A stretch of DNA of 64,000 bases. Origin: a virus. Positions 13,897 through 36,447 of this stretch are shown here, piece by piece. Both the position numbers and the translations under genes were made by a program. The notes below the pieces were generated by a model. That model did not search any database. It saw nothing but the letters and a program-made list of their open reading frames with translations, and was not told the DNA's origin. The stretch spans positions 1 through 64,000 of IMG/VR virus record IMGVR_UViG_3300017971_000032. The stretch is one strand, 5' to 3'. Positions within the stretch are counted from its first letter, which is position 1; the number at the start of each line of letters is the position of its first letter.

Positions 13897-13917
13897 TCTA
13901 TAGGTGTTGGCTTGAGG

Positions 13918-13948
13918 AGAGACAGGGTATTGCGCCCTGTCTCTTCTT
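13918..13948 (+). terminator. Rho-independent terminator
   Basis: A 10-bp perfect stem, AGAGACAGGG (13918-13927) with CCCTGTCTCT (13935-13944), a 7-base loop and a following TCTTT. It lies just after the SAP-domain gene and closes that single-gene unit. Confidence 0.8.
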
Positions 13949-14003
13949 TGGGATAGTGTGCTGTGGGATAGGGTAGGCAACTTGAAGTGGATTTGATAAT
14001 TTG

Positions 14004-14840
14004 ATGTACACTTGGCAGACATTTGGCCGGGAATTGATAGAGACTGAAGACCTGGATCCAGTGTACGTCATGCTAGTGGATTCCAAAGCGCTTATGAATG
14101 ATAATCTGTTGAAGCGCTGGTTGCTGGCATATTGGTGCTATTACAGTTGCGGTGTGGCCTCGCGCATAGCGGAGTCGGATGACTTTTATGCATCCATGTG
14201 GCAGGGCATTCATGAGAAGTGGCCCAGAGGGATGGAGCGTCGGTACTTCTGGGGTCGGCAGGCTGAGAATGCAATCCAATATCTCCAAGAGTGGGGTGAG
14301 CCAGAGGCTGTAGTAGATCATATGACAATCCATGATACGTTCCAGGAAGCATCCGATGCCGTTCAAGAGTTTGTGGGGTTTGGGCCTTGGATGGGCTGGA
14401 AGATTGTGGACATGGCTGAAAGGGTATTGGCTATTCCGGTTGACTTCTCTGAATCCACGTTAGGCATTTATAAGGATCCAGTTCAAGGTGCAGCGTTCGT
14501 GCGGTTTGGGGATTGGAAGCATCCTATCACTGAGGCTGAGTTGGATGAAGAAGTCCAGCGCCAGGTGGAGGAGTTCAAAGATCTATTGGCGCCACCATTC
14601 TATGATAGGCCACCTAATATCCAAGAAGTTGAGACTAATTTATGCAAGGCTAAGGCATCATTCAAGGGATTTTACCCGATGGGAAACGACACGTACCATG
14701 TACGTGAGAGCTTGAAGGGTTGGGGTGACTTAGCTCAGGAGCTGTTAGGGTGGTGCCCTAGGATGCGGGATGGGTGGGTGGATGAGGACGGCAACTTATT
14801 GCGGGCGAACAGGGTAGAGGTGGTGGAGACATATGGCTGA
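14004..14840 (+). CDS. aGPT-pyrophosphorylase / 5-hmdU DNA kinase superfamily protein (putative)
   Basis: A 278-residue helical protein. Residues about 122-155 (FVGFGPWMGWKIVDMAERVL) look like the helix-hairpin-helix core of the DNA-glycosylase-like family named alpha-glutamyl/putrescinyl-thymine pyrophosphorylase. Some members of that family are known as 5-hydroxymethyluridine DNA kinases. Both types act on 5-hydroxymethyluracil in phage DNA on the way to hypermodified thymines. It overlaps the radical SAM gene by 8 bases, and a PLP enzyme and P-loop kinases follow, the company this family keeps in known hypermodifying phages. The subfamily cannot be decided by eye. Confidence 0.5.
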   Translation: MYTWQTFGRELIETEDLDPVYVMLVDSKALMNDNLLKRWLLAYWCYYSCGVASRIAESDDFYASMWQGIHEKWPRGMERRYFWGRQAENAIQYLQEWGEPEAVVDHMTIHDTFQEASDAVQEFVGFGPWMGWKIVDMAERVLAIPVDFSESTLGIYKDPVQGAAFVRFGDWKHPITEAELDEEVQRQVEEFKDLLAPPFYDRPPNIQEVETNLCKAKASFKGFYPMGNDTYHVRESLKGWGDLAQELLGWCPRMRDGWVDEDGNLLRANRVEVVETYG

Positions 14841-16254
14841 TAATGACAATCATGGGGTGCAAGAGTTTCATAGGTTGAATGAGCCTGTGGGTGAGGGTGA
14901 GGATGAGCATGGTCATTATCAGCTCATACCTTTGAGCATGGTGCGTGGAGGCAAGGCCAAGCCTTATAAAGTGTACACGAAGCCGATGAAGCATTTACTC
15001 AGAGACACTACGCCTGCACCCAGAGGCTGGTACAAGCCAAAGCACCCTGAATCTGACCGTGTGCGGGCAAGACCTTGCTACACTGAAGCACTTCTTACCA
15101 CACCCTATGGTGGATTTTGCCCTGTTAATTGCGCCCATTGCTATGTGAATAACGGAACACGCGGATACCGTGCTACAGGATTGCCGGTGGCACATTACAA
15201 ATATCCGGAGGCAATGCGAAAATGGGTTTCTAAGCTGTCTATCTCTGGTGCTGCATATATTACCTCATTCAGTGAACCGTTTCACTTCTTAGAGCCAGAA
15301 TACCACGTTACGCAGAATCTAGCGCAGGTCTTCATTGACGAGGGTTTGCCGATGTTCTTCCTATCGCGCAAGATTCCGCCTGATTGGGCTATGGATGCGT
15401 TGCTTGAAAATCCATATAGCTATATGCAGTGGAGCGTTAACACATCCAACCCCGATCACTACAGGCGATTCTCGCCAGGCAGCTTTAGTTTGGATGAGGT
15501 GTACGAGGCTATACAGCGCTTCCATGACAATCGCATCTTTGTTAGCATTCAATGCAATCCCATCATAGCGGGCATCACCACGCTCCAGGAGATTGTAGAT
15601 TTGGTGTATGAATTGGAGTATGCGGGTGCTGATCACATCATCTTCAAGTTCGTGGAGCAAGTGGCTAACAATCGCAAGGTGCTGCTGGATGCGTTCCACA
15701 GGCGTGGATTGCCGCATGTGGACGCATTTGACAATCTATTCAGCCAAGTGATTGGTGGGGTGTACACGATTAATGAGGATGTGCGTGTGGAATGGCTGGA
15801 AGTGCTGTTGGAGGAAACACGCAAGGCAGGCTTGACCATGAGCTTGTGCTATGAGTACTATGATGATGGTCATGCTGGCGCCAATTTGGCTCCTTACTAT
15901 ACTACGGCGGATCAATGCCATGGGCGTGGGGTGCCTATATTCTATCGTCCTGAGCCTGGAGCACGCTTCCAACCGTTGCCTGGGTGCTACCGCAAGGGTT
16001 GTCTGTATTGTGAGGAGTACGGCACGCGTGTGTGTGAGAATGATAAATTACTAAGCGCTTCAGATTTTCAGTATAAAGATCTGCGCACTATTCAGATCGA
16101 AGGGCACGAGTCTAATTGGGACTTGCCAGATAGTTGTGTCAGTCCTGATGAGCTGACCTTTCACGATAACTGCACATTTTCGGAACGACTACGGTTTGGC
16201 AATCCGAAGCTACAAACGGATGCTGAGATGTGGGGATGGGATGACGAAGTATAA
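14833..16254 (+). CDS. Radical SAM enzyme
   Basis: A 473-residue protein with the canonical CxxxCxxC iron-sulfur motif in CPVNCAHCY near residue 98. Further Cys groups in the C-terminal half (CYRKGCLYCEEYGTRVC, about 382-398) may hold an auxiliary cluster. Radical SAM enzymes use S-adenosylmethionine to start radical chemistry. In the phage M6 thymidine pathway a radical SAM isomerase acts after amino-acid attachment to the base. Its coupling to the aGPT/HMUDK-like gene supports a DNA-base substrate here, but that is inference. Confidence 0.75.
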   Translation: MADNDNHGVQEFHRLNEPVGEGEDEHGHYQLIPLSMVRGGKAKPYKVYTKPMKHLLRDTTPAPRGWYKPKHPESDRVRARPCYTEALLTTPYGGFCPVNCAHCYVNNGTRGYRATGLPVAHYKYPEAMRKWVSKLSISGAAYITSFSEPFHFLEPEYHVTQNLAQVFIDEGLPMFFLSRKIPPDWAMDALLENPYSYMQWSVNTSNPDHYRRFSPGSFSLDEVYEAIQRFHDNRIFVSIQCNPIIAGITTLQEIVDLVYELEYAGADHIIFKFVEQVANNRKVLLDAFHRRGLPHVDAFDNLFSQVIGGVYTINEDVRVEWLEVLLEETRKAGLTMSLCYEYYDDGHAGANLAPYYTTADQCHGRGVPIFYRPEPGARFQPLPGCYRKGCLYCEEYGTRVCENDKLLSASDFQYKDLRTIQIEGHESNWDLPDSCVSPDELTFHDNCTFSERLRFGNPKLQTDAEMWGWDDEV

Positions 16255-16984
16255 GGTTTGTAATAAGTGGGATATAGACATACCAGATAGTGCATTGGTT
16301 GCGGCTGATGATAATCCGGGCAGTATTGCCAGGCCATATACATATTATATAGACCATAAGTTGGCGGATATAGGATATCAGGCCTGGTGCCGGGAGTACT
16401 TGTTGAATAATTTGGAAGGTGTACATAGTGTAGTGGAGTACTTTGGTGGTATAGGTGTGGATGCATCTATAGTAGAAGGCACATTCGATTTGGAAGAGCA
16501 TGTTTTATTGGATTTGGATGCCGGATGTGTGGACATTTTGCGCAGAAACAATCCAGAAGCGGAGAGAATAATACAAGGTGATTTTGTGGAATATGCTGGC
16601 ATAAGAGCTGATTTGGCTATATGTGATTTTGAACAATTCACGATGCTGCACATTACCAGAAATAGGAATGGCATGCGTGAGGCATTAGGCAAGGTGCTGT
16701 CAGCTTGCGATTGTTGTATAGTAACTGGCTCAGCAATTAGTAGGATGCATCTGAATGTAGATATATACTCTGAGGCTTCTGACATGCTTGTGAGGGACGT
16801 GTTCACATATATGCAAGCCATGTCTCATTGCTTTTATGATTTATATGGTTTCTGTGTGGGCATGGTGGCTTATGGGCCTCATGCATCGTTCATTACACTT
16901 CTTCCTGGCAAGCATGACTTATGCAATGCTGCATGTATAAAGGCTCCTAGTAGTGCTAGGGATAGTTTCAGGAGAATGGGATGA
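16241..16984 (+). CDS. Putative SAM-dependent methyltransferase-like protein
   Basis: About 247 residues. The central part has a Rossmann pattern: glycine motif VVEYFGGIGVDAS (about 66-78), an acidic end of the second strand in VLLDLDAG, and a motif-IV-like strand DLAICDFEQFTM. It overlaps the radical SAM gene and the PLP enzyme gene, so it belongs to the same operon. Methylation of a DNA base or base precursor is possible, but no target-recognition domain is seen. ATG 16241 is chosen over more upstream in-frame codons within the radical SAM gene. Confidence 0.5.
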   Translation: MTKYKVCNKWDIDIPDSALVAADDNPGSIARPYTYYIDHKLADIGYQAWCREYLLNNLEGVHSVVEYFGGIGVDASIVEGTFDLEEHVLLDLDAGCVDILRRNNPEAERIIQGDFVEYAGIRADLAICDFEQFTMLHITRNRNGMREALGKVLSACDCCIVTGSAISRMHLNVDIYSEASDMLVRDVFTYMQAMSHCFYDLYGFCVGMVAYGPHASFITLLPGKHDLCNAACIKAPSSARDSFRRMG

Positions 16985-17850
16985 TGCATGACATGGTTTG
17001 TAGTTGGGAGCCTAGTTCTGGCAATGATAATCTTGTAGTGTCCAACACGCCCTGGGAAGTCTATAAGATAGATGGTGTGCCTGTTCATGTCAAGCGTGAG
17101 GATTTGTGTTGCCCACCTCCTGGGCCCAGTTTCTCTAAGATACGTGGTGTCAAGGCATATTTGGAGGAAGTGCCAAATGATACAGTTGTGGGCGTGTTGG
17201 ACACGATCCATTCCAAGGCTGGTTGGGGTGTGGCGTACGTATGCAATGCCTTGGGCTTAGAGTGCGTGGATTTTTATCCTGTATACAAACATGAGCCTTG
17301 GGAAACTGTGAGGCCTATACAAGCCAAGGCTAAAGAATTGGGAGCCACTTTGTATCCTATGAAGGCTTGGCGCTCCTCAGTGATGTATGGCAGGGCGAAG
17401 AAGATCTTAGATAAGATGGCAGATGATCGGGCACTCATGATGCCTAATGCTCTTAAGCTTCAAGCTACTGTAGATGCTACTGCAGAGGAGGTACGGTTGT
17501 ACACGCCCCAAGAATGGATGAGTGGCACTTGGATAGTATCCATATCGTCTGGCACAATAGCAGCTGGCGTGCTGAAAGGTTTGGGTGGCAATGATAATGT
17601 TTGCGTGATCGCTCATATGGGATATTCACGCAGTTCAGATTATGCCCGCAAGTATATGATAGACATGGCCAAGGGTGATGTACCATCAGACATATTGATA
17701 ATAGATGAAGGGTACGAATACACTGATTCAGTGAAGGAGAGTTGTCCATTTGAATGTAACAAATTCTATGATCTCAAGGCTTGGAAGTGGTTGAAGGGTG
17801 TTGTTGCTTCAATTGACCAACCTGTCATATTTTGGAACATAGGAGATTGA
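16981..17850 (+). CDS. PLP-dependent enzyme, tryptophan-synthase-beta fold (type II)
   Basis: A 289-residue protein. VHVKREDLCC and FSKIRGVKAYLEE (about 35-62) match the N-terminal region of fold-type-II PLP enzymes such as ACC deaminase and D-cysteine desulfhydrase, where the lysine in the S-K-I-R segment forms the internal aldimine. A glycine-rich phosphate site appears as SISSGTIAAGVLKGLGG near 180. Its operon position after the radical SAM gene parallels known thymidine hypermodification clusters that use PLP enzymes for lyase or decarboxylase steps. The start overlaps the upstream gene as ATGA. Confidence 0.7.
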   Translation: MMHDMVCSWEPSSGNDNLVVSNTPWEVYKIDGVPVHVKREDLCCPPPGPSFSKIRGVKAYLEEVPNDTVVGVLDTIHSKAGWGVAYVCNALGLECVDFYPVYKHEPWETVRPIQAKAKELGATLYPMKAWRSSVMYGRAKKILDKMADDRALMMPNALKLQATVDATAEEVRLYTPQEWMSGTWIVSISSGTIAAGVLKGLGGNDNVCVIAHMGYSRSSDYARKYMIDMAKGDVPSDILIIDEGYEYTDSVKESCPFECNKFYDLKAWKWLKGVVASIDQPVIFWNIGD

Positions 17851-17851
17851 C

Positions 17852-18100
17852 ATGGACATTACCAGCATCAGGGCTGAAGGTTCGGACAAGCATGTTGTAA
17901 TCAATGTGGATGGCACTGGTGAGGATTTATCCAAGTTGGGTGTGAATATCAGCGCTTTGAGATATGATCAGTGGTTCAATGTAGATTTGCAGGTATACCC
18001 ATCTACCTTGGACAAGATCATGCATGTCGAAGCTATTCCGCAGGAGCAGAGAGATCACATTAGACAGTTGGTGGAGGCAGGACATGGCGACGAAAGCTAA
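17852..18100 (+). CDS. Small unknown protein
   Basis: An 82-residue acidic protein with AGGAG before ATG 17852, one base after the PLP gene stop. No domain is recognised. The C-terminal helix (IPQEQRDHIRQLVEAGHG) overlaps the start of the next gene. Confidence 0.6.
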   Translation: MDITSIRAEGSDKHVVINVDGTGEDLSKLGVNISALRYDQWFNVDLQVYPSTLDKIMHVEAIPQEQRDHIRQLVEAGHGDES

Positions 18101-18266
18101 TGATCAAGGATTTGAGGATGGCTTGTTGGGCAGACGCAGGCGCAACAGGCACAGATTTGAGCCGGAGAAGGCAGCTGACTACGATACTGGCTACGATGAT
18201 GCCGTGTTGAGATTGAAGGAGATTGGGCGTGGCAGGCCAGTGCGTGTGCGACATTTGACTGGATGA
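18084..18266 (+). CDS. Small basic RMF/CrpP-like protein (weak)
   Basis: Sixty residues from ATG 18084, which has a GGAGG site. The layout (GFEDGLLGR, a basic loop, then YDTGYDDAV) loosely follows the ribosome-modulation-factor/CrpP fold pattern of two helices around a G-x-x-x-G turn. The likeness is weak. It ends just before the kinase gene. Confidence 0.5.
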   Translation: MATKANDQGFEDGLLGRRRRNRHRFEPEKAADYDTGYDDAVLRLKEIGRGRPVRVRHLTG

Positions 18267-18270
18267 TAAT

Positions 18271-18867
18271 ATGGCCCTACTAGGTATATATGGCCCGCAT
18301 GCAGTAGGTAAGACTACTGCTATGGACAGACTAATTGATAAAGTGGAAGGCAGGCCTGTCACTATCATCAATGCTGATAACAATCTGGAGCGCTGGTGGA
18401 ATGATAACAGTCTTGAGGAGATGCGCCACAAAGGTCGTGGTTGGTGGAAGGGCAAGGCTGAGGGCAAGCGTGCGCTGTGTGCAGACCTTATAGCTGATGA
18501 TATGCGCTTATGGGTGCTGGAGAGTGTGCGCTTCGACACTCACAAGGGCATTGCCCAAGCATATCAGGACTATGATGGTGGAGCACATGTGATATTCTTG
18601 GTTGCACGTTGGGATGTATTCGAATCATTCATGATAGAGCGCAACGAAGCTAATGGCAGAGAGTTCAATTATGATTATTGGACGCAATCCAAGCTGGCCT
18701 ATGAAGGATATGCTAGGTACATCAATCAGGCTCACAAGTACTTCGATCCATATGGAGTGCCATATGATGTAATTGAGGTCAGTCATGACCGGCATGAGTG
18801 GTCGGAGATTGATGAGCTAATTTGGATGCAAGTGATGAAGCCGTTGGATAGGTGGTATAATGGCTGA
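18271..18867 (+). CDS. P-loop kinase 1
   Basis: A 198-residue P-loop protein with Walker A GPHAVGKTT at 8-16 and an NMP-kinase-like layout. A DNA-base kinase or deoxynucleotide kinase role fits the operon. It lies between the PLP gene and a second kinase. Its last bases overlap the start of a small membrane protein gene. Confidence 0.65.
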   Translation: MALLGIYGPHAVGKTTAMDRLIDKVEGRPVTIINADNNLERWWNDNSLEEMRHKGRGWWKGKAEGKRALCADLIADDMRLWVLESVRFDTHKGIAQAYQDYDGGAHVIFLVARWDVFESFMIERNEANGREFNYDYWTQSKLAYEGYARYINQAHKYFDPYGVPYDVIEVSHDRHEWSEIDELIWMQVMKPLDRWYNG

Positions 18868-19015
18868 GATTGTAATGAGTGTGATCCTATATCTGGCAGC
18901 TAAATGTTTGATATGGATAGGGTTGTTGCCAGACACTGAATCGGCAATTTTGCTATTATTGTGCCTAGTGTTTGTAGTACTGTCAAACCTCAATTTGTCA
19001 GGGGATTCAGCATGA
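18860..19015 (+). CDS. Small membrane protein
   Basis: A 51-residue protein made almost entirely of two hydrophobic segments (VMSVILYLAAKCLIWIGLL and AILLLLCLVFVVLSNL). It overlaps kinase 1 by 8 bases and kinase 2 by 4 bases, so it is translated within the operon. Function unknown. Confidence 0.6.
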   Translation: MAEIVMSVILYLAAKCLIWIGLLPDTESAILLLLCLVFVVLSNLNLSGDSA

Positions 19016-19647
19016 AGCTTGTTCAGATAAAGGGTAGCAATGGTTCAGGAAAGACCACTATAGTCAAGCAGATGCTGGAGTTGGATCCAGATGCTTACTA
19101 TTTGGAATATGATGGCATGATAATCGCAACTGTCATGCCTACGGTGCGGTGGATTGCTGTAGGCAAGTATGATCTTGAATCGAAGATGGGTGGTTGTGAT
19201 AGGTTGTCTAGTGTGGACAAAGTGAAGGATGCTATAGACAGATCGTTGGATTGGGCATGTGAGTTGTCTGATATGGAACCTATGTATGGGATTGTGTATG
19301 AGGGTATGATGATAAGCACCATTAAGACGACTTTCTATGATTATGCTGTCTTAATGGCAAGTCGTTATGATGTGGATCCGTTGTTCGTAATATTAAGCGC
19401 TTCTCCGAAAGGGTGTATGCATCGCATACAAGATCGTGGTACAGCACGCAAAGACCTTAACCATGATAATGTGGCTAACAAGTGTTTGATGGTAAGACGT
19501 CATGCCTTAACGTATGACCCTGAGCTTGTGAGGTGGATGGATGTGGAGCGTATACCAGAGGCTTATATGTTACAAGCCTTTGCGGCATTGGTAGGAGATC
19601 ATGATTTGGTTGCCAGGTTGGTCATAGGAGCAGATTGGGGTGAATAA
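19012..19647 (+). CDS. P-loop kinase 2
   Basis: About 211 residues from ATG 19012 (ATGA overlap). It opens MKLVQIKGSNGSGKTTIVKQ, with Walker A GSNGSGKTT. This opening is typical of the phage P-loop kinases that occur in base-hypermodification operons and that phosphorylate 5-hydroxymethyl-dU or its nucleotide. Arg-rich SPKGCMHRIQDRGTARKD could form the lid. Substrate assignment is inference. Confidence 0.65.
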   Translation: MKLVQIKGSNGSGKTTIVKQMLELDPDAYYLEYDGMIIATVMPTVRWIAVGKYDLESKMGGCDRLSSVDKVKDAIDRSLDWACELSDMEPMYGIVYEGMMISTIKTTFYDYAVLMASRYDVDPLFVILSASPKGCMHRIQDRGTARKDLNHDNVANKCLMVRRHALTYDPELVRWMDVERIPEAYMLQAFAALVGDHDLVARLVIGADWGE

Positions 19648-20395
19648 CATCGAAGTAGGATACATGACCAGTACAGAACATCTCATGTCAATGACAATCT
19701 ATGGTGAATCGTTAGATAGGGATAATGTGCCAACGTTTCCTAATGGTTGGCGTTTAGATCTGTGTGGAGAATGTAATGGGGCCAATGGGGGTTGTCCTGT
19801 AGGCGGGGCACCTCATTATCACCAGCTGAAGTCATCTATCCAAGGCTTTTATGTATTGGTGGTACGCTTTGATATGGTTTGGGCTATCAAATATGGTGGT
19901 GTGGGCAAGGGTGTGAGGCAGTCTAATTACTTCCGCTCTGGGTACGCAGACCGTCTGACAGATTGGTATACATGGAGGCTGTTGCGTAGGCTTGAGGAGA
20001 ATGCTAGTGCTTACAGCTTAGGATGTGGCAATTGTCCCAAATGCTCTCCCAAGAAATGCACTGTCATGACTGGTGCCAAGTGCTTATATCCCGATCAGCG
20101 CAGATACTCAGTAGAGGCTGTGGGTGTGGATTGCTCATCCTTGCACAATATGCTGTTTGGGCATCGTTTGGCTTACTGGTACTATGAGGAAGAATTGCCT
20201 CAATACATGTATCGTTATAGCGGGCTATTTGTGGAGGATGATGTGTGGGATTATGTAGTAGAGGCAGTATTGGCAGATGCTAGTTACAATGACAATCTGC
20301 CTGAGCCGCATGGCTTGCAGAGTGTGGAGTGCGAAGCGCCAGAGGGAGTATATGATGAGGGCATGGCATACCAGGGATACTTGCCCAAGTCCTGA
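19640..20395 (+). CDS. DUF2284-like Cys-rich metal-binding protein
   Basis: A 251-residue protein starting at GTG 19640. It shows the DUF2284 layout: LDLCGECNGANGGCPVG near 41-56, then SLGCGNCPKCSPKKC near 131-145, and CLYPDQRRYSVEAVGVDC at 153-170. The family is thought to bind an iron-sulfur cluster or cobalamin-type cofactor; its role is unknown. In this operon it could be a redox partner for the radical SAM enzyme, which is inference. Confidence 0.55.
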   Translation: MNNIEVGYMTSTEHLMSMTIYGESLDRDNVPTFPNGWRLDLCGECNGANGGCPVGGAPHYHQLKSSIQGFYVLVVRFDMVWAIKYGGVGKGVRQSNYFRSGYADRLTDWYTWRLLRRLEENASAYSLGCGNCPKCSPKKCTVMTGAKCLYPDQRRYSVEAVGVDCSSLHNMLFGHRLAYWYYEEELPQYMYRYSGLFVEDDVWDYVVEAVLADASYNDNLPEPHGLQSVECEAPEGVYDEGMAYQGYLPKS

Positions 20396-20933
20396 TAATT
20401 ATGTATGCCAAGAATGTGGTTTGTATAAGGGGTTAAATCACCCATTTCAGGGCATGGTAGGCAATGACAATCCACAGATATTGGCGGTGGCAGAGGCTCC
20501 CTGATGTGACACGGAGGAGGTGGGTACCACCTTCATAGGTCGTTCGGGAGAGATACTGCGTAGCGCAATGAAAAAGTTAGGCATGGATGATGTAACAGGT
20601 TATATCAATGTAGTGCGATGTCATCCACCCAACAACAAGTTGCCTGCCAGGTGCGCTAAGTTGTGCGCTAATTTCCTGAGACATGATCTCAAAGCTTTGG
20701 ATGTGGAGGCAGTGATGGCATTTGGAGCTACGGCATCCAAAGCTTTGATGGCACCAGACAAACCTCCGCATGATTGGCCTGGTGCCATATATCAGGTCAA
20801 TGAGATGGCGCATAGACATTTGTTGTTATTGGCATATCACCCAGCATACATTCTTCGTAGGCCTGGTTTGAAGGAGCAGTGGATGAGTGATTTGAGGCGA
20901 TTCAAAGCTATGTGGAGGAGTTGCTATGGCTAA
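20352..20933 (+). pseudogene. Broken family-4-like uracil-DNA glycosylase
   Basis: A single reading frame that would encode a family-4 UDG: N-terminal VCQECGL, motif A AEAP, then GTTFIGRSGEIL, NVVRCHPPNNK and the C-terminal YHPAYILRRP. It is interrupted by TGA at 20502-20504, exactly where the intact UDG domain at 21417 has the Gly of GEAPG; spacing on both sides is unchanged. One base change (GGA to TGA) explains it. GGAGGAG stands directly before an in-frame GTG at 20520, so a separate C-terminal chain may be made. The alternatives are pseudogene, a two-chain enzyme or a sequencing error. Confidence 0.75.
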
Positions 20934-21117
20934 GAGACATGTTCAGCAAAGTCTTAAAGTGATTCAGAAAAGGTGTTCTGTATGCGGACGCGGTATGAGA
21001 TGGGAGGCGGTACGTAACAGGTGTGTGAGAGCAGGCACTAATAGAATAGTGCAAGATGGATTGTGGGTTTGCACTAATGCTGAGTGTGGTGGTGACGATG
21101 TTAACAATGAAAAGTGA
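20926..21117 (+). CDS. Small zinc-ribbon protein
   Basis: Sixty-three residues with CSVCG near 17 and a second pair CTNAEC near 49, a probable C4 zinc ribbon, and a basic N-terminus. AGGAG precedes ATG 20926, which overlaps the broken UDG. DNA or RNA binding is inferred. Confidence 0.6.
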   Translation: MAKRHVQQSLKVIQKRCSVCGRGMRWEAVRNRCVRAGTNRIVQDGLWVCTNAECGGDDVNNEK

Positions 21118-21430
21118 TCAATCTGCCCACATGGCTGACCGTGTCCACGTTGAGGTGGAGCGTTCAAGGTTGGAGAGTATAGCTTACCGTGTCATCAATC
21201 TTGTGATGCGCAAGAATGCGGACTATGGTGACGCGTGGCAACGTCAGGGCATTAACGGAGCCATGGTGCGATTGGCTGACAAGCTTTACCGCATTGACAA
21301 TCTGTCTGATGGGCGTGAGGTGTTGGTGCAGGAGGAAAGGTTGCTGGACACGCTGGTAGATGCTATCGGGTATGCTATGTTAGGCATATTATACCTTCAA
21401 GATGCGGGAGTGTTGGATGACAGTGAATGA
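21107..21430 (+). CDS. Nmad1 (DUF1599)-like protein
   Basis: About 107 residues from ATG 21107. The segment IAYRVINLVMRKNADYGDAWQRQGINGAMVRLADKLYRI, then ERLLDTLVDAIGYAMLG, carries the helical pattern of the nucleotide-modification-associated domain 1 family, related to all-alpha NTP pyrophosphatases (acidic and Lys residues around a metal site). Members are found with phage DNA modification genes. It is coupled to the polymerase gene by overlap. Confidence 0.6.
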   Translation: MKSDQSAHMADRVHVEVERSRLESIAYRVINLVMRKNADYGDAWQRQGINGAMVRLADKLYRIDNLSDGREVLVQEERLLDTLVDAIGYAMLGILYLQDAGVLDDSE

Positions 21431-24035
21431 TAATATTGGTTGCGCAGCCTGTGGTTTATGTGATCAATGCAAGTGCCCTAATATGCCCCCAGGCGAATAC
21501 TTCGATGACTACTGCGATATAATGTTTGTGGGGGAGGCTCCTGGCGCTACGGAGGATGATCAAGGCACCCCATTCGTAGGCAGATCTGGGAAGTTGTTAA
21601 GGGATGCTGTAGATTCTATAGGTCTATATAAATACGGGTACGTGTTTACTAATGTCGTACGCTGTCGCCCGCCCAACAATAAGACACCTACTAAGCGCCA
21701 AATAGGCTACTGTTTGCCTATATTGAAGGATGAGATTGAGCAATACCAGCCTAGGTTGATAATCTTGTTAGGTGGCACTCCGCTTAATGCGGTTCTAGGT
21801 GAGTCAATCGTCACCAATTGGCGAGGTACATTGATTGAACGTGATGGGTTAACATACTTGCCAGTGTTTCATCCGGCATACATCCTTCGCAATACATCAG
21901 CACTAGAAGAATGGGTGAAGGATCTTGAAAAAGCCAAATCCTTTTTGAGTGGTGATGTAGGTACTGGCAATGTGTCAGATGAGTATGAGTTGACGTTGAT
22001 AGAGACTGATGCACAAGCCCAAGATATGTACAAGACTATCAAGTCTATAGGCTTTTGTGCCTGGGACACGGAGACCAATGGGTTGCGATATGGGGACGAG
22101 CTGGTGATGATGAGCTTTGCAGTGGATGAGCCTGTCAAGCGTGCGTGGGCTGTACCAGTGCCGGGTTGCAATAAGGTGTGCAAGAGATTGTTGCTGGATC
22201 CTGACGTGTTGAAGGTGGGGCACAACATTAAATTTGATGTGTTGGCCATACATGGCAATTGGAATGTAGAAGTGCAGGGTATTGTAGGTGACAGCATGTT
22301 AGCGTCTTATGTGCTAGATCCAGTGCCAGGACGTCATGGTCTCAAGCCTTTGGCGGGCAGACATTTGGGTATGTATGATTATGCCAAGAAGCTGGAGGAT
22401 TATCAGGCATTACGCAAGGACACTAATCCTAAGTATGGTGGGGATTTGAGATTGGTGCCTACGGAAGTGTTAGCGGAGTATGCTGCTTTAGATGCTGTGG
22501 CCACATTAGAGTTGGAGTGGCGATTGTTGGATGATATGGAGGATGAGCAAAAGATAGTGTATGAGCAACTGCTCATGCCTGCTTCTGCTACATTCAGCCA
22601 TTTGGAAATGAATGGTGTTGTGATTGATGAATATTTAGTGGAGCGTTACAAAGCTATTTATGCAGAAGCCAGGGATGCTAGATTAGACGAGTTAAGATCT
22701 GATGAAATGATAGTAGCGTATCATAAGTTCAAGGTCAGACATGGGTATGATAAATTTGAGTTCAATCCTAATTCATCCTATCAGATGAGGGATGTGTTGT
22801 ATGGTTGTGTTGTATGTCCTGAGTGCCATAAGACTGTTGCTAATGAAAATGTGAATCAGGGGCGTAGGCATGAGTGTGCTAAGTGTGATACTAGATTTGC
22901 GGCAACCAAAAGCACAATGTTCAAAGGCTATGGATTAGGTATTACAGTCAAAACCAGTACTGGCAGGCCTTCCACTGGTTGGGATGTATTGAAAGAGTAT
23001 GTGGAGGAGTTGCCAATGCTGACAGTATATCGTCAGTACAAGTTGTTGGGTAAGATGCTGTCCACATATTTGGAACCGGCTATAGGGTGGAAGGATAAAG
23101 ACGGGCGTGTAAGGTCTGATTATAAGATTCACGGCACGGATACTGGCCGTGCCAGTAGTCGCAATCCCAATCTCCAAAACATTCCCACGCCTGAGAAGGA
23201 GCCTGGTACACTTTTGCAGTACTTGCCTATTAAGAACATCTTCACTTGCACTTGGCCAGAGGGTGGATGTTTGCTGTGTGCGGACTATAGTGGTATGGAG
23301 TTGCGCACGATGGCATCAGTATCAGAGTGCCAAGGTATGATAGACATATTCCTGCGCGGAGAAGATTTGCATTCTATCGTGACTGAGTTCTTGTATGATA
23401 TAAAGCGCGAGGATTATACACCAGAGGAGTGGAAGCCAATACGGTATAGAGCTAAGTGGACTAATTGGACGTTGCTGTTCGGTGGGAGTGCATACACACT
23501 CCACAGGTTGTACGGACTTGATAAAGAAGAGGCTGACCGTTTAGTCAATAGGTATTATGACTTGTTCCCGGAGGTATTGGAATACAAAGAGCGCACATTG
23601 GCTTTTGCGCGTGAACATGGATATGTAAGATCTATGTTTGGAAGGCGCAAATATTTGCCTTATATCAATGATTGGCATGATGGTAAACGTAAGGCAGACG
23701 AGCGTGCTGGCATAAATATGCCTATACAGAGTTCAGCCTTTGATGTGTTGTTATGCGCAATGATAATATTGGATGAGTGCATGTGTGATGCTAATATGCG
23801 TTCCTTGATAGTCAATACAGTCCATGACTCAATTATGTTTGATGTGTATCCTGGTGAGTTGGAGGAGTTAGCAGGTTTGTGTGGGGATGTAATGGAAAAA
23901 GTAACGAGTGTGTATGGGCCTGAAAGATTTCCAGGGCTGGACTTCTCGTGGTTCACCGTTCCACTGGTGGTGGACATGGAGATTGGCACACATTATGGAT
24001 CTTTGACAAAGTGGGGGGCAGAGAGTGGATTATAG
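21417..24035 (+). CDS. polA: UDG - 3'-5' exonuclease - DNA polymerase A fusion
   Basis: An 872-residue protein. Residues 1-185 are a family-4-like UDG domain: CAACGLC, GEAPGATEDDQGTPFVGRSG near 39-58, NVVRCRPPNN, and FHPAYILRN. A DnaQ-type exonuclease follows, with D217-T-E219, GHNIKFD and YAALDAVA. The family A polymerase has motif A DYSGMELR near 622, motif B in the RAKWTNWTLLFGG region, and motif C VHDS near 803. A zinc-ribbon-like insertion (C467-x2-C470, C486-x2-C489) sits between exonuclease and polymerase motifs. It is the replicative polymerase; the UDG domain may act in lesion sensing or host DNA damage. Confidence 0.9.
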   Translation: MTVNDNIGCAACGLCDQCKCPNMPPGEYFDDYCDIMFVGEAPGATEDDQGTPFVGRSGKLLRDAVDSIGLYKYGYVFTNVVRCRPPNNKTPTKRQIGYCLPILKDEIEQYQPRLIILLGGTPLNAVLGESIVTNWRGTLIERDGLTYLPVFHPAYILRNTSALEEWVKDLEKAKSFLSGDVGTGNVSDEYELTLIETDAQAQDMYKTIKSIGFCAWDTETNGLRYGDELVMMSFAVDEPVKRAWAVPVPGCNKVCKRLLLDPDVLKVGHNIKFDVLAIHGNWNVEVQGIVGDSMLASYVLDPVPGRHGLKPLAGRHLGMYDYAKKLEDYQALRKDTNPKYGGDLRLVPTEVLAEYAALDAVATLELEWRLLDDMEDEQKIVYEQLLMPASATFSHLEMNGVVIDEYLVERYKAIYAEARDARLDELRSDEMIVAYHKFKVRHGYDKFEFNPNSSYQMRDVLYGCVVCPECHKTVANENVNQGRRHECAKCDTRFAATKSTMFKGYGLGITVKTSTGRPSTGWDVLKEYVEELPMLTVYRQYKLLGKMLSTYLEPAIGWKDKDGRVRSDYKIHGTDTGRASSRNPNLQNIPTPEKEPGTLLQYLPIKNIFTCTWPEGGCLLCADYSGMELRTMASVSECQGMIDIFLRGEDLHSIVTEFLYDIKREDYTPEEWKPIRYRAKWTNWTLLFGGSAYTLHRLYGLDKEEADRLVNRYYDLFPEVLEYKERTLAFAREHGYVRSMFGRRKYLPYINDWHDGKRKADERAGINMPIQSSAFDVLLCAMIILDECMCDANMRSLIVNTVHDSIMFDVYPGELEELAGLCGDVMEKVTSVYGPERFPGLDFSWFTVPLVVDMEIGTHYGSLTKWGAESGL

Positions 24036-25812: not shown

Positions 25813-25938
25813 ATGGATCTAACTACTAGTGTAGGGCTGTTCAAATATGGTTGGACGGGTGTGATTATCATTATGATTGTGGCAGTGTCTGTGGGGTTAG
25901 ATTTGCTGAGCAGATATATTAGGAGCAGGTTGGAATGA
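25813..25938 (+). CDS. Mini membrane protein
   Basis: Forty-one residues (GWTGVIIIMIVAVSVGLDLL hydrophobic core) starting two bases after the preceding stop and ending in an ATGA overlap with the nucleotidyltransferase gene. Function unknown. Confidence 0.55.
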   Translation: MDLTTSVGLFKYGWTGVIIIMIVAVSVGLDLLSRYIRSRLE

Positions 25939-26651
25939 TTGGAATTGTATTAGCAGCCGGCAAATCTGAACGTATGAGTGGTGCAATGAATAAGTGCATC
26001 AAACCTTTGGATGGTGCTGGCCACACGATGTTAGGCAGAGTGATTAGTCAATTGCGCAGCTTGGATGTGGCTCCTGTTGTAGTAGTAGGTTACCAGGCTA
26101 AGGCTGTCATGAAGCGTTACTGTGCCAAGGCCACATTTGTCTACAACCCTGACTATGAATCCACAGGCAGCCTGTATTCTCTTTGGCTGGCGTTGAAAAT
26201 TATATATGATGTCAGTGATGTGGTGCTGGCTTCTGGATCTAATATAATTACAGCCTACACCTTGCGCAATATGATGCGCATTGAGGTGCCGAAAGGTGAC
26301 AACATTGCTGTCATGTATCCTTACCCTCATGGCCAAGCTGGTGCCCGCAACATATATCATCGTGTAGTGACTTCTGTGGAGAATGGCGCATTAAGGCATG
26401 ACATAGCAGAAACAGCTCCTCGTGATGAGTGTCCCGAATGGTGTGATGAGAGCATGGCATACTCTCAATTTGGGATAGCCAACAGATTATATTTGTTGCA
26501 TCACATACCGTATGTGCCTGGTTGGCGTACTGCTAGTGTAGGCAAAGCTTTAGCAGGATTCCAGGCTATGAATGTGGGTGTACATGACACGCTAGATGTT
26601 AACACACAGGCAGATTTTAGGTTGGCCAAGGAATGGTTTGGATATGGGTAA
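25935..26651 (+). CDS. Sugar/alditol-phosphate nucleotidyltransferase
   Basis: A 238-residue GT-A-fold nucleotidyltransferase. The opening MIGIVLAAGKSERMSGAMNK is the classical G-x-G-x-R-like NTP-binding loop, followed by KCIKPL, where the Lys contacts phosphate. It shares most with short LicC/RfbA-type enzymes that make CDP- or NDP-activated sugars or alcohols. The metal Asp usually in a DGD motif is replaced by LASGSN, which is odd. It opens the glycan cluster. Confidence 0.7.
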   Translation: MIGIVLAAGKSERMSGAMNKCIKPLDGAGHTMLGRVISQLRSLDVAPVVVVGYQAKAVMKRYCAKATFVYNPDYESTGSLYSLWLALKIIYDVSDVVLASGSNIITAYTLRNMMRIEVPKGDNIAVMYPYPHGQAGARNIYHRVVTSVENGALRHDIAETAPRDECPEWCDESMAYSQFGIANRLYLLHHIPYVPGWRTASVGKALAGFQAMNVGVHDTLDVNTQADFRLAKEWFGYG

Positions 26652-27417
26652 GATCGCTATCATAGCTGCGGCTGGATGGAAGGGTACCAGTTCAGTCTTT
26701 CCGGAGATTGACAAAGGCATACCTGAGCCGTTGTTGCCTTGCCACGGACAGACGTTGCTGTCTAGGCAAGTGTGTCAGTTGAGGTGTGCTGGGTATTACA
26801 CCATTGCGGCCATAGGACAACCAGGTAGCATATACGCGCAGTGGGCAAGCTTAAGGTTGCGTGAAGGTCATATTGATGTGTCAGGCACTTATGAAGGCAC
26901 TAGACCGCCTGGGCCATGGACTTGGCAGAGGGTGGATTATGTTAGATCTATAGGGGCTGTGCCTGTGTTAATACAGCACCCTGGCTGTCATAACAGCTTC
27001 GATACGGTTACTCAGTGTATGGATATGGTAGGCTATAGTCAGTGGGATGAATTACTGGTAACCTTTGGAGATTATATATTTAGTAATGAGTTACTGACTG
27101 CAATGTTGGAGTTGCCTGCCCCAGTCCAGATTTGGATGGGTGAAGTCAAGGGTGCGCTTCATCATAAGTTCTTGAGATTGAATGTGGAATGTGCCAAGGC
27201 TTATTATGAGTTGCCATCATACGACCAAAACAAAGTAGGACACACATCTCACAATGATAAAGTGCGCAAGGTCTTGGAGGAATTAGGAGCGCCAGTTATA
27301 AATGCGGAACAAGCATTCAAACGTATATACAAACATGGCGAGTATGGTTGGATGGATATTGACTTTCCTTCCAATTATACCAGATTGAGACAGTGGGTAA
27401 AGGATGGTAAGATATGA
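26644..27417 (+). CDS. Second nucleotidyltransferase-like protein
   Basis: About 257 residues from ATG 26644, overlapping the previous gene. It begins MGKIAIIAAAGWKGTSS, with LLPCHGQTLLSRQVCQLRCA, again the nucleotidyltransferase pattern but with a diverged NTP loop. LVTFGDYIFS near 139 takes the place of the LxxxGD motif. It may be an active NDP-sugar synthase or a partner of the first enzyme. Confidence 0.6.
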   Translation: MGKIAIIAAAGWKGTSSVFPEIDKGIPEPLLPCHGQTLLSRQVCQLRCAGYYTIAAIGQPGSIYAQWASLRLREGHIDVSGTYEGTRPPGPWTWQRVDYVRSIGAVPVLIQHPGCHNSFDTVTQCMDMVGYSQWDELLVTFGDYIFSNELLTAMLELPAPVQIWMGEVKGALHHKFLRLNVECAKAYYELPSYDQNKVGHTSHNDKVRKVLEELGAPVINAEQAFKRIYKHGEYGWMDIDFPSNYTRLRQWVKDGKI

Positions 27418-28289
27418 TAGCTGCTGGATCTGTGAACGTAACGTATCCTGTTCGTATACATGAGGATGCGGACATTTGGGTGTCAGACCATTTGTCCATA
27501 GGCCAGTACACAGTCATCAAGTCCGGGTTCAAGGCCAAGTGTCGCAGTTTGACAATCGGACGTCATTGCTATATCCACGAGGGTGTAGAGATCGGGTTTG
27601 GCGGATGTATGGGCTTGAATGCGCATGTTCACATAGGTGATTATGTAGGCATCTTCCAAAACACGCATATTAACTGTGCGGAGCCTGTCTATATCGGTGA
27701 TTGCTGCGGTCTGGGGCAGGAAGTGAAAATCTGGACGCACGGCACCTGGTTGCCGGTGGCGGAGGGATTCCCTCCGCAGAAGCAGGAGCCGGTGCGCATT
27801 GGTGATAAAGTATGGCTACCCGCACGCACGCAGGTGTTGGCAGGTGTGGAGATTGGTGATAATGTGGTAGTTGGCATCAACTCACTGGTTAACAAGTCAT
27901 TGCCATCAGGATGCTTTGCTGCTGGCATTCCTGCCAAAGTGATAAAAGAGAATGTATATCCTAAGCCTTTGACCACTGAGGAGTTAATGCAAGTTGCACG
28001 TGAATTGTGCGCTGGATATTTGCCCATAGCGCAGGATAAGGGGTTTCAGCCAGATTGTCTTGCCCCGTATTTGGATACAGACAATGGGCATGTGTACATA
28101 GACTTCCAGATGAGTGAGGGCGAGGGTGCTGTAGAGTTTGATTTGAGTGACCCTAGTGCTACATATTTGCCTGGCATTAGTGAGTATGAGGAGGATTTTA
28201 GGGATTATTTGCGTCGCAACGGTTTCAAGTTTCACAATGGCGGTTTCTTCAAATCCATGTTGCCGACAAGGTTCACTGAGGTACGTTGA
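27414..28289 (+). CDS. Hexapeptide-repeat acyltransferase
   Basis: A 291-residue protein. Residues 15-185 are left-handed beta-helix hexapeptide repeats with the family C-terminal signature VWLPARTQVLAGVEIGDNVV, then SLVNKSLPSGCFAAGIPAKV. The catalytic His may be in NTHINCA or WTHGTW. The last 100 residues are an extra acidic domain. Such enzymes O- or N-acetylate sugars; it is coupled by ATGA to the nucleotidyltransferase. Confidence 0.8.
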   Translation: MIAAGSVNVTYPVRIHEDADIWVSDHLSIGQYTVIKSGFKAKCRSLTIGRHCYIHEGVEIGFGGCMGLNAHVHIGDYVGIFQNTHINCAEPVYIGDCCGLGQEVKIWTHGTWLPVAEGFPPQKQEPVRIGDKVWLPARTQVLAGVEIGDNVVVGINSLVNKSLPSGCFAAGIPAKVIKENVYPKPLTTEELMQVARELCAGYLPIAQDKGFQPDCLAPYLDTDNGHVYIDFQMSEGEGAVEFDLSDPSATYLPGISEYEEDFRDYLRRNGFKFHNGGFFKSMLPTRFTEVR

Positions 28290-28948
28290 TGTCGAAAGCC
28301 GAATTTATGGGATACAAAGATGTAATATGCCTGTCCCCACATCCTGATGATGTAGAATATGGCATGTATGGCACGGTGTTGTCCTGTCCTGGCACTACCT
28401 TTTGGATTATCGTAATGAGCCAGGGTGCTCCATCTAATCCTACCTATGGTAAGGTGAGGCTAGAAGAAGTCACCAGGTGCTGGAAGGGTGTGCACAATAA
28501 GACATTAATATTCACAAATGCTAGCAGTCTAATGTCTTTGGCGGAGCGTGAGTGGATTGGCAAGTTGGAGCATGATTATTCAGATGTGCTAGGTATATGT
28601 AGTACTATGATAGTGCCGCCGTTAGATGATGACCATTATGAGCATTCGCTAGTGTCCAGAGTAGGTCGTGCTATTGCCAGATCTAATGCCTATGGGTTGA
28701 TAGAATATCGCACTGCCAGTGCTAGGGAAAGTTGGACACCTAATTTAGTGGTGGATATTACAGACAATTATGTTGCCAAGCGTCAGGCTATGGTGAATTT
28801 TCAAAGTCAGGCCAAGCATGGCTACTTTTCGCAAGCTGGTTTGAATGCCTTTCACATCCATTATGGCGCATCCAGGCGTGGGTATGGTACATGGCATGAG
28901 TTGTTCAGAATAGTGATGATGTATATGGGGGGAGGCAATAATGATTAG
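28289..28948 (+). CDS. PIG-L/LmbE-type deacetylase
   Basis: About 219 residues. The zinc site motif SPHPDDVEYGMYG is at 14-26 and a later DDHYEHSLVSR (about 112) supplies the second His, both classical for PIG-L deacetylases that remove acetyl groups from GlcNAc conjugates. Together with the acyltransferase it suggests an amino sugar is deacetylated and re-acylated. The start overlaps the upstream stop. Confidence 0.82.
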   Translation: MSKAEFMGYKDVICLSPHPDDVEYGMYGTVLSCPGTTFWIIVMSQGAPSNPTYGKVRLEEVTRCWKGVHNKTLIFTNASSLMSLAEREWIGKLEHDYSDVLGICSTMIVPPLDDDHYEHSLVSRVGRAIARSNAYGLIEYRTASARESWTPNLVVDITDNYVAKRQAMVNFQSQAKHGYFSQAGLNAFHIHYGASRRGYGTWHELFRIVMMYMGGGNND

Positions 28949-31992: not shown

Positions 31993-31994
31993 GT

Positions 31995-34548: not shown

Positions 34549-34552
34549 GAAA

Positions 34553-34661: not shown

Positions 34662-35375
34662 GTGAACTGGTCTACAATTGCTTGCTTGATCCCGACCTAT
34701 AATAGACCTGACATTCTGCCAATGACTATTAAGTTGCTGGATGAGAATTTGGGCTATCCTGGCCGCATCGTGTACTTTGTTGGTAATGATGGGGATATAG
34801 ATGTTGCCCCTGTTTTGGTTGAGACGTTAAGTGAGGACATCAGGGAGAGGCTACAAATCATATGTGGCCCACGGCGTGAGAATGGCAGCGGCGGATTGGG
34901 TGATAATCTGAACAAGTTGTTAAGAGTGACCGCTAATTATCACATAGACTATCTGCTACAAATGGATGATGATCATTGGTTGATTAAGCCTATAGATTTA
35001 GTGCCCCATGTAATTCAACTGATGGATGATGGGGCTGGCTGGATACGGCTAATGGGCATTGGCTCACACCACTATACAGCCACGCTTGAAGGTAATTATT
35101 GGTATGTGCATTGGGATAGCGAGGGGCCGTACAGCTTGTATATCCCATCTAATCGTCCCCATTTAAAGCACAGAAGGTTCCACGACTTTTATGGGTACTA
35201 TCCTGAAGGTATGAAGTTAGGAGAGACTGAGGAGAGCTTTTGTCACCAATGTCGCAGGGCGTGGAGGACTGCTACAGAGAATGACAATCCGCCCAGTGTG
35301 TTAGTGCCATTGAATAACAATTCAGAATCTGCCTGGATGCATGTAGGTGTATCCTGGCAATCCAAAGGAGAATGA
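34662..35375 (+). CDS. Glycosyltransferase family 2 protein (GT 6)
   Basis: About 237 residues. GTG 34662 is chosen because AAAGGAG stands six bases before it and because any upstream start would read through the leader structure. The opening IACLIPTYNRPDILPMTI, the DxD region LLQMDDDHWLI near 103 and a C-terminal Trp/Tyr-rich part fit GT2. It is separated from the other five glycosyltransferases by its own promoter, so its expression is set apart. Confidence 0.78.
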   Translation: MNWSTIACLIPTYNRPDILPMTIKLLDENLGYPGRIVYFVGNDGDIDVAPVLVETLSEDIRERLQIICGPRRENGSGGLGDNLNKLLRVTANYHIDYLLQMDDDHWLIKPIDLVPHVIQLMDDGAGWIRLMGIGSHHYTATLEGNYWYVHWDSEGPYSLYIPSNRPHLKHRRFHDFYGYYPEGMKLGETEESFCHQCRRAWRTATENDNPPSVLVPLNNNSESAWMHVGVSWQSKGE

Positions 35376-35376
35376 G

Positions 35377-36447
35377 ATGCCACAGTTGGAGGAGCTATCC
35401 ATCGAGGTTACCAATGAATGCCCTATGATGTGTATCCATTGCTCATCCGGTTCCAGCCCCAAACGGTTGCCTGATGAGATCTCAGTGGAGCTACAATTGG
35501 ATTTGATTGAGCAAGCACGGGATATGGGCGCAACTGTGCTGAGCCTGAGTGGTGGGGAGCCTTTGGTGTACCCTCACCTTATGGAGCTGGTGCGAAAGGC
35601 TGAACGGTGGGGTTATGATCGCATCCTGTTGTACACTACTGGCCATACGCACGAGCATCGTTGGGTGAATCAGCACCCTCTTGTGAGTAGGTTGTTAAGC
35701 GTGCGCAATTTGACTTGGATATTCTCGCTCCATTCTGCTAACCCTGCGGTTAATGACCACATCATGAACCGTGAGGGTGCTACTAATCACATCAAGGACT
35801 CCGTATCTTGGTTGGTGAGCCAAGGTGCCGATGTTGAGATTCACATGGTGCCAATGAAAATCAACTTCACCAGCATTGCTGGCTTGCGCCAATGGTGCTC
35901 TTCTATAGGTGTGAGTAAGATGAGTTTGCTGCGGTTTGTGCCCCAAACACGTGGTGCGGCCAACAAGGACGCATTGCTGATGGACGTGCCTGATTTCTCA
36001 TTGATGCAGGCCATTATGCATATTCAGACTACCATGTCCGCCAGCCCTACAGACCTGCGACTAGGATGCCCGATTGACTTCAGACACTCTCTTGGATTGG
36101 TGTCGGAGAAACAAAAGCCATGCCATGCTGGTGATGATCTTATTCTTGTGCGGCCAGATGGTGCTGCCCATCCTTGCGCTGCTTGGAAGTCTTTGCCGTC
36201 TGACGCCAACGTGCGGGACTACAGCCTGGAGAGCATTTTCAATGATAGTACGGTGTTCCAAGCCGTACGTCACTTCAAGTACGACAGGGGATGGGATCGC
36301 ATCGAGGGATGCAAGGATTGTAAGTATGTGGAGAGTTGTATGGGTGGTTGCCCTGCTCAACGTCTTCATGCCTATGGCAAGAAGCTGGATGCGTTGTTTG
36401 CCGCCCCTGGCGATCCATTGTGTCACATGGTGAGGGGTAATGTCTGA
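35377..36447 (+). CDS. SPASM-domain radical SAM enzyme
   Basis: About 356 residues from ATG 35377 (AAGGAG upstream). The radical SAM motif is CPMMCIHCS at 15-23. SLSGGEPLVYPHL near 57 is the S-adenosylmethionine GGE motif. The C-terminal CKDCKYVESCMGGCPAQR (about 315-332) is a SPASM auxiliary-cluster signature. Such enzymes modify peptides or, in some cases, sugars. It lies between GT 6 and recA, so either a glycan step or a peptide/protein modification is possible; no precursor peptide is obvious nearby. Confidence 0.8.
   Translation: MPQLEELSIEVTNECPMMCIHCSSGSSPKRLPDEISVELQLDLIEQARDMGATVLSLSGGEPLVYPHLMELVRKAERWGYDRILLYTTGHTHEHRWVNQHPLVSRLLSVRNLTWIFSLHSANPAVNDHIMNREGATNHIKDSVSWLVSQGADVEIHMVPMKINFTSIAGLRQWCSSIGVSKMSLLRFVPQTRGAANKDALLMDVPDFSLMQAIMHIQTTMSASPTDLRLGCPIDFRHSLGLVSEKQKPCHAGDDLILVRPDGAAHPCAAWKSLPSDANVRDYSLESIFNDSTVFQAVRHFKYDRGWDRIEGCKDCKYVESCMGGCPAQRLHAYGKKLDALFAAPGDPLCHMVRGNV

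Follow-up and report, generated by a model that had tools for sequence, protein, structure and literature searches.

Gene content of the cassette

The window, a 64,000-nucleotide stretch (positions 1 to 64,000) of the virus record IMGVR_UViG_3300017971_000032, carries at 14,004–24,035 a series of genes that all run in one direction and mostly overlap (Table 1). The record is a complete genome, with an exact terminal overlap of 123 bp. Four of the genes encode the core enzymes of Pseudomonas phage M6, an amino acid:DNA transferase, a radical SAM enzyme, a fold-II PLP enzyme and a 5-hmdU DNA kinase, at 27–50% identity to the M6 cassette (tblastn). The original prediction of a likely thymidine hypermodification locus is thus supported by sequence comparison, and the cassette is of the M6 type. 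The predicted order, with two P-loop kinases, a DUF2284-like Cys-rich protein, and an Nmad1-like protein followed by a polymerase, was also recovered. One gene had been overlooked, a member of the uracil-DNA-glycosylase (UDG) superfamily between the DUF2284 and Nmad1 genes.

Table 1 Features of the cassette and a further radical SAM gene of the window
Feature	Position	Strand	Evidence or remark
Amino acid:DNA transferase (ADDT/aGPT-Pplase2 family)	14004..14840	+	Pfam ADDT PF18724 2.7e-18, above gathering score
Radical SAM enzyme, M6 gp53 type	14833..16254	+	Pfam 2.2e-8; phrog_9252 3.7e-85
Predicted class I SAM-dependent methyltransferase, unnamed phage family	16241..16984	+	AlphaFold2 model; homologues adjoining PLP genes
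Fold-II PLP enzyme, M6 gp52 orthologue	16981..17850	+	phrog_7093 1e-75; Pfam PALP 2.7e-7
Small ORF, 82 aa	17852..18100	+	No relatives found (Pfam, PHROG, related loci)
Second P-loop kinase-like protein	18271..18867	+	Weak AAA/dNK matches only; kept in four related cassettes (L013:8886-9542, L023:2365-3033, L071:13261-13935, L088:5627-6301(-))
5-hmdU DNA kinase (HMUDK)	18961..19647	+	Pfam PF18748 9.2e-22; aligned with M6 gp54
DUF2284 Cys-rich protein	19640..20395	+	Pfam PF10050 2.5e-8
UDG-superfamily gene, TGA-interrupted	20352..20933	+	Pfam UDG 2.1e-17 on read-through; start codon uncertain
SECIS-like hairpin	20516..20534	+	8-bp stem, loop GUA, loop 19 nt after UGA
Nmad1/DUF1599 nucleotide-modification-associated protein	21056..21430	+	Pfam 1.8e-7
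Family A DNA polymerase	21402..24035	+	N-terminal UDG domain (GEAPG intact) and 3'-5' exonuclease; Pfam
Radical SAM/SPASM protein	35347..36447	+	Shared with G038

The first gene had been read as aGPT/HMUDK-like. The transferase part of that reading stands: the product matches solved transferase structures in the PDB (25qc, E = 7.6e-47; 8z2m, 'Glycinyltransferase', E = 8.5e-43), which keeps it within the proposed family, and it is 37% identical to M6 gp51 (tblastn), with the invariant residues of the alignment kept. The HMUDK part does not, the 5-hmdU kinase being encoded at 18961 instead. The transferase is expected to swap the phosphate on 5-phosphomethyl-dU for an amino acid, glycine being the probable one. 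The radical SAM enzyme, second in order as predicted, has the CX3CX2C motif at C96, C100 and C103 and further cysteines at 82, 339, 362, 385, 390, 393 and 401 that are invariant in the alignment; it is 64% and 58% identical to its counterparts in the phage genomes G002 and G001, and no relatives were found among PDB sequences or, with the alignment, in a GTDB genome scan. The fold-II assignment of the PLP enzyme comes from phrog_7093 together with Pfam PALP, which for this protein lies below its cut-off. The enzyme is 49.6% identical to M6 gp52 (E = 6e-80, tblastn), and K53 within PSFSKxRG, invariant in the alignment, is expected to be the Schiff-base lysine. In the HMUDK, the Walker A positions G-x-N-G-x-G-K-T-T are invariant in the alignment with M6 gp54, and Met18 (~19012) is a likelier start than the GTG at 18961.

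The second kinase-like protein has no PDB sequence relatives that we could find. The DUF2284 protein scores 34.3 against a gathering cut-off of 25 bits, in a match that covers only the C-terminal Cys motif and is wider in G002. Six cysteines (45, 52, 132, 135, 140 and 148) are kept across three phages in the alignment, and the protein probably binds an Fe-S cluster or a metal; the pLDDT of its predicted structure, 30, is too low to speak for any fold, and its PDB sequence matches do not go beyond chance. The DUF2284 gene adjoins cassette genes in G002 and is fused to HMUDK in the complete genome of a related phage, G038. Single-sequence scans of viral contigs with the products of 14001, 16196, 19640 and 18271 returned nothing close.

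The UDG gene is interrupted by an in-frame TGA at 20502–20504, which stands where motif A (GEAPG) has its conserved Gly, and a SECIS-like hairpin follows. Locus L082 has a TGA at 12780 and a hairpin of equal shape and spacing, and the two proteins are 48% identical; a stand-alone UDG gene with a TGA is common to the window phage and the relative that has the DUF2284-kinase fusion. Both hairpins fall within the bSECIS ranges (loop of 3–9 nt, G in its first two places, 16–37 nt from the UGA), at a z-score of only −1.8 each. As in bacterial selenoprotein genes under the bSECIS model (PMC13188914), an in-frame UGA is followed at 19 nt by an 8-bp stem with a 3-nt loop starting in G; unlike in those genes, the homologues seen, which are polymerase-fused UDGs, have Gly and not Cys at the TGA position, and the word 'glycosylase' is absent from that review. 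The gene is a candidate phage selenoprotein as judged from these motifs. General reassignment of TGA was rejected, TGA being the commonest stop (37 of 53 genes), as was a conserved internal restart past it, the GTG of the window being GTT in L082. No tRNA genes were detected with ARAGORN across the 64 kb of the window, which precede the last 13.5 kb of the record, and a GTDB genome scan with the UDG alignment found no relatives.

The methyltransferase and the final base

The product of 16241, predicted to be methyltransferase-like, has no family match in Pfam or PHROG, and no PDB sequence relatives were found for the reading frame taken from TTG 16196, the alternative to ATG 16241. Its AlphaFold2 model, built on a shallow alignment of 8 sequences, is nevertheless confident (pLDDT 90.1, pTM 0.88) and has the seven-stranded Rossmann fold of class I SAM methyltransferases, with Trm1/Trm5-type nucleic-acid methyltransferases as best matches (Trm1, Z 15.4). 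The protein carries a glycine-rich motif I (E-x-F-G-G-I-G) and an acidic motif II (D-L-D), the motif II residue varying among some members of the family. The (N/D)PP(Y/F) (DPPY) motif of amino-methylating DNA methyltransferases is missing, most members of the family having D-[FY]-x-x-x-[TS] instead, and for this reason activity and target stay candidate assignments.

The methyltransferase stop overlaps the PLP start by 4 nt. Family members occur in nine PLP-bearing phage records, including Pseudanabaena phage Pam3, in a collection made by PLP gene from which members located elsewhere may have escaped; they adjoin the PLP gene in most records and flank it on both sides in G002. Searches by tblastn with two family members returned, among phage records, Pam3 only. 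Mapped onto the PLP tree, where its members lie scattered, the family changes state nine times; shuffled labels give no more changes than that (mean 8.4), so the gene has been gained or lost repeatedly. Given this distribution, 16241 is probably a tailoring enzyme. In a set of 60 further PLP loci taken from phage contigs, the majority include ADDT and radical SAM genes, and HMUDK and thymidylate-synthase-type genes are present in many.

We favour, as reasonably probable, an M6-type post-replicative cassette with an added methyl-tailoring step that would yield N-methylated 5-(2-aminoethyl)-dU. The step chemistry of M6, on which the proposal draws, is general knowledge; we infer every chemical step in the window phage, the methylation target included. 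The 18961 kinase would phosphorylate 5-hmdU in DNA, and the 14004 ADDT would put an amino acid, probably glycine, in place of the phosphate. The radical SAM enzyme would convert the N-linked glycyl group into a C-linked one, and the PLP enzyme would decarboxylate it to an aminoethyl base. The 16241 protein would methylate either the group that the PLP enzyme acts on or the one that it forms, with the amine as the likeliest site, while DUF2284 and the second kinase (18271) would act at or before the 5-hmdU or phosphorylation step.

Alternatively, the phage might follow the plain M6 pathway to 5-(2-aminoethyl)-dU or a simple relative, with the methyltransferase acting elsewhere, for instance as an ordinary methylating enzyme of DNA or proteins, and with accessory roles for DUF2284 and the second kinase, such as radical SAM electron donor and nucleotide kinase. 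None of the four core enzymes is missing and each is well conserved, and the core works in the absence of the methyltransferase, which the close relative G038 lacks; against this, the methyltransferase gene is repeatedly tied to the PLP gene across diverse backgrounds, and we regard the plain pathway as a serious but unlikely contender. The suggestion that the methyltransferase and DUF2284 are extras that may alter the base has been strengthened, as both recur in related cassettes.

The source of 5-hmdU

To our knowledge, the known phage routes of thymidine hypermodification take 5-hmdU from a dUMP hydroxymethylase or a TET/JBP oxygenase. The noted absence of a dUMP hydroxymethylase from the window extends to the whole complete record, in which PF00303 (the thymidylate-synthase-type dUMP hydroxymethylase), ThyX/Thy1, TET/JBP and AlkB-type oxygenases were not found. 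No oxygenase is among the families listed for the remaining proteins of the record (25 of 52), and ten proteins were rechecked. PF00303 and Tet_JBP were likewise not found in the complete genome of G038. With extra recurring enzymes and no known gene for the starting base, both the final base and the first step may be new.

DUF2284 is a candidate part of a third route to 5-hmdU. Of the 6 records that lack both thymidylate synthase (TS) and TET, 3 carry it, and of the 26 that have one or the other, none does; in the complete relative G001, TS is present and DUF2284 absent, and the domain fusion in G038 joins DUF2284 to the very kinase that would receive 5-hmdU. In such a route, DUF2284, perhaps with the TGA-UDG-fold or the SPASM radical SAM protein, would make 5-hmdU from T (or dU) in DNA and hand it to the kinase, replacing the hydroxymethylase, a proposal that fits both views of the later steps. 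The SPASM protein at 35347 is a possible member of the pathway, being common to the hydroxymethylase-less G038 and not found in G001. However, few lineages are involved and these are related, three of those six records are incomplete pieces, a hydroxymethylase or oxygenase of very divergent sequence is possible and DUF2284 has no known chemistry; we hold the route to be tentative and on balance unlikely. The methyltransferase was rejected as the missing 5-hmdU maker, since Pam3, L023 and L048 carry both it and a thymidylate-synthase-type gene. That the pathway is decaying, with the hydroxymethylase lost, the remaining genes relics and the DNA unmodified, would fit the absence from the record of the M6 genes TS, aGPT-Pplase1, HD and Nmad5, but is very improbable given that every core ORF is intact and keeps its conserved motifs and that G038, with core proteins 54–59% identical, retains a comparable set of genes from which those same ones are missing.

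Known systems share parts of this arrangement. The M6/Yuavirus pathway (gp51–gp54) has the same ADDT, PLP enzyme, radical SAM enzyme and 5-hmdU DNA kinase, with a family A polymerase nearby, and M6 DNA contains 5-NedU (PMC6449724). Compared with M6, the window has no dUMP hydroxymethylase, aGPT-Pplase1, Nmad5 or HD nucleotidase, adds the methyltransferase, second kinase, DUF2284 and stand-alone TGA-containing UDG genes, and has a different gene order. Pam3 has the core enzymes, Nmad1 and a distant methyltransferase (Pam3_39, 25% identity); unlike the window, it carries thymidylate-synthase-type, aGPT1, HD and Nmad5 genes, it has no gene annotated as DUF2284, and its methyltransferase lies 2.4 kb from the PLP gene. 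The TET/JBP-type route to 5-hmdU of phage Tonitrus (PMC11955845) likewise places ADDT and HMUDK downstream of a source other than TS; Tet_JBP was found in G005 and G007, whereas the window genome has no Tet_JBP match.

The boldest reading, which we consider rather improbable, is that a phage subgroup makes 5-hmdU directly in DNA with a DUF2284 iron-sulphur protein and the 5-hmdU DNA kinase, possibly helped by a UDG-fold protein with Sec at the residue expected to face pyrimidine C5, the end product in the window phage being an aminoethyl base that is N-methylated and so far undescribed. In two complete related genomes the downstream pathway persists together with DUF2284, and no dUMP hydroxymethylase or TET/JBP protein can be recognised in either. 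This makes DUF2284 a concrete candidate for functionalising the methyl group of thymine in a new way and gives a domain of unknown function a suggested role; the locus also offers a probable new family of tailoring methyltransferases and a UDG-superfamily gene that is a candidate for encoding a selenoprotein.

Cassette organization and correspondence to phage M6

ORF analysis together with Pfam and PHROG searches confirmed the one-directional gene block at 14004-24035 that the original prediction had read as a likely thymidine hypermodification locus; the gene list drawn up for it was incomplete, with a UDG-family gene after the DUF2284 gene overlooked. From its sequence, the block is a thymidine hypermodification cassette of the M6 type, and the phage genome that carries it is complete. 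Its proteins share 37%, 50%, 38% and 27% identity with gp51, gp52, gp53 and gp54 of Pseudomonas phage M6, respectively, and a comparison with solved structures pairs its amino acid:DNA transferase (ADDT) with 25qc (amino acid:DNA transferase, E = 7.6e-47) and 8z2m ('Glycinyltransferase', 8.5e-43). Lee et al. (2018 and 2021/22) reportedly detailed the steps as glycine transfer, radical SAM isomerisation and PLP decarboxylation. M6 DNA contains 5-(2-aminoethyl)-dU, formed by way of 5-hmdU and then a 5-hmdU DNA kinase (PMC6449724).

Genes of the cassette, in order
Product	Position	Searches
ADDT	14004-14840	Pfam/PHROG
Radical SAM enzyme	14833-16254	Pfam/PHROG
Methyltransferase-like protein	16241-16984	
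PALP enzyme	16981-17850	Pfam/PHROG
Small ORF		
P-loop protein (second kinase)	18271-18867	
5-hmdU DNA kinase (HMUDK)	18961-19647	Pfam/PHROG
DUF2284 protein	19640-20395	Pfam/PHROG
Stand-alone UDG-family gene with in-frame TGA	20352-20933 (counterpart in G038: L082:12651-13187)	
Nmad1/DUF1599	21056-21430	Pfam/PHROG
UDG-PolA-exonuclease fusion	21402-24035	Pfam/PHROG

At 13914-13949, past a SAP-domain gene and immediately ahead of the cassette, a strong hairpin precedes a T-rich run; the terminator scan output does not include it. A block of about 10 kb (25935-35375) encodes a nucleotidyltransferase, a hexapeptide acyltransferase, a PIG-L deacetylase, a TylF-like methyltransferase and several glycosyltransferases, and could serve virion or DNA glycosylation; it sits between the SSB and SPASM/RecA genes, and not between them in the related phage G038. 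A repeated motif like KGGPGSGNWGHAGRPGLVGGS occurs in many proteins (L001, L069, window 39689-62279), also in the relative G001.

A UDG-family gene with an in-frame TGA

The TGA lies at the same place in the window (AEAP*CDTEEVGTTFIGRSG) and in locus L082 of G038 (QEAP*RDVEKVGPTFKPIGRSG), and the read-through proteins match Pfam UDG at 2.1e-17 and 1.8e-18. Those polymerase-fused UDGs that were read carry GEAPG at the corresponding motif A site, with no stop in any of them. General reassignment of TGA is ruled out because TGA ends 37 of 53 genes. Selenocysteine normally stands in place of cysteine, not glycine; the motif A glycine site in UDG structures presumably faces C5 of the bound pyrimidine. 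An 8-bp SECIS-like hairpin places its loop, GUA or GUC, 19 nt past the TGA; one pair is G-C in one phage and U-A in the other, and singly the hairpins are only moderately unusual (z = -1.80 and -1.81; 9 and 8 of 200 shuffles). The bacterial SECIS model accommodates this loop and spacing (PMC13188914). We regard the protein as no more than a candidate selenoprotein.

Genome completeness, 5-hmdU and DUF2284

The first 123 bases of the 77,500-base record containing the window are identical to its last 123, an exact terminal overlap that argues for completeness, and a reading frame continues across the joint. G038 (77,754 bases) and G001 (74,005 bases) have terminal overlaps of 127 bases, and all three are taken as complete circular assemblies, though listed with linear ends. 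The thymidylate-synthase family (PF00303), Thy1 (PF02511), Tet_JBP and AlkB-type oxygenase (PF13532) were not found in the window's record, and unfiltered searches with M6-type TS (dUMP hydroxymethylase), aGPT1, HD and Nmad5 profiles gave no significant match there; the genome has no recognised 5-hmdU source. Across 40 PLP- or radical-SAM-bearing phage records, PF00303 is present in 24 and Tet_JBP in two others; the M6-type records with neither are the window's, G038, the 31-kb G002 and smaller fragments.

DUF2284 (PF10050) was detected in 0 of 26 records having TS or TET and in three of six with neither (the window's, G002 and G038; 32 tested), a hand-worked Fisher-type count of 20/4960, or about 0.004, that ignores kinship. 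A better contrast is offered by the complete relative G001, which has TS and aGPT1 and lacks DUF2284. A single ORF in G038 joins HMUDK (residues 23-182) to DUF2284 (371-442), and six cysteines are kept across the DUF2284 proteins of three phages; structure prediction for the window protein gave no usable model. The probable place of DUF2284 in the pathway is at the 5-hmdU/kinase step or next to it; as a hypothesis we propose it as the maker of 5-hmdU.

Recurring methyltransferase and second kinase

Relatives of the second kinase lie between the PLP and HMUDK genes in G001 (L013), between ADDT and PLP in L023, between radical SAM and ADDT in G002, and beside the HMUDK-DUF2284 fusion in G038. 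HMUDK was not found in the partial G002 contig; because this relative is the sole kinase seen there, the second kinase could likewise be a 5-hmdU DNA kinase.

A scan that used an alignment of the PLP enzyme gathered 60 loci. Relatives of the 16241 methyltransferase occur in L009 (two copies flanking a PLP gene), L023, L029, L033, L047, L048, L061 and Pseudanabaena phage Pam3. The gene adjoins the PLP gene in the window, L009, L023, L033, L047, L048 and L061, and is separated from it by one gene in L029 and three in Pam3. On the PLP tree the trait requires nine changes, and shuffled labels give no more; since loci were chosen by PLP gene, the pattern shows that the family recurs across varied PLP backgrounds, but not that it is confined to them. 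An AlphaFold2 model (pLDDT 90.1, pTM 0.88) falls among class I methyltransferases with Foldseek and VIA-align (Trm1 best, Z 15.4), and two uncultured phage proteins match it near full-length. The protein is predicted to have a class I methyltransferase fold, which by itself does not prove activity; its pairing with the PLP enzyme suggests the amine of an aminoethyl or glycyl group as target. G002 (L075/L071, L009) has two PLP genes, one highly divergent, the second flanked by both methyltransferase copies.

In a second cassette type (L021, L029, L052-L061), the M6-like PLP gene is accompanied by genes for two radical SAM proteins of divergent sequence (~354 and ~470 aa) and two unknown proteins of 240 and 250 aa; several of these cassettes also encode a PolA with a UDG domain and an unknown protein of 360 aa. 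ADDT, HMUDK, TS and TET were not found in cassettes of this type, which possibly specify another base modification. Large insertions interrupt radical SAM genes at L082:8558-11107 (directly inside the CX3CX2C motif), L033:4461-6884 (with an intein splicing domain match), L055:8296-10113 and in L057.

The window cassette would operate like the M6 system, from which it differs in that one usual feature, the hydroxymethylase, is missing from the phage. Its predicted extras are the recurring methyltransferase, the recurring second kinase and a DUF2284 protein tied to the kinase through fusion in a relative.
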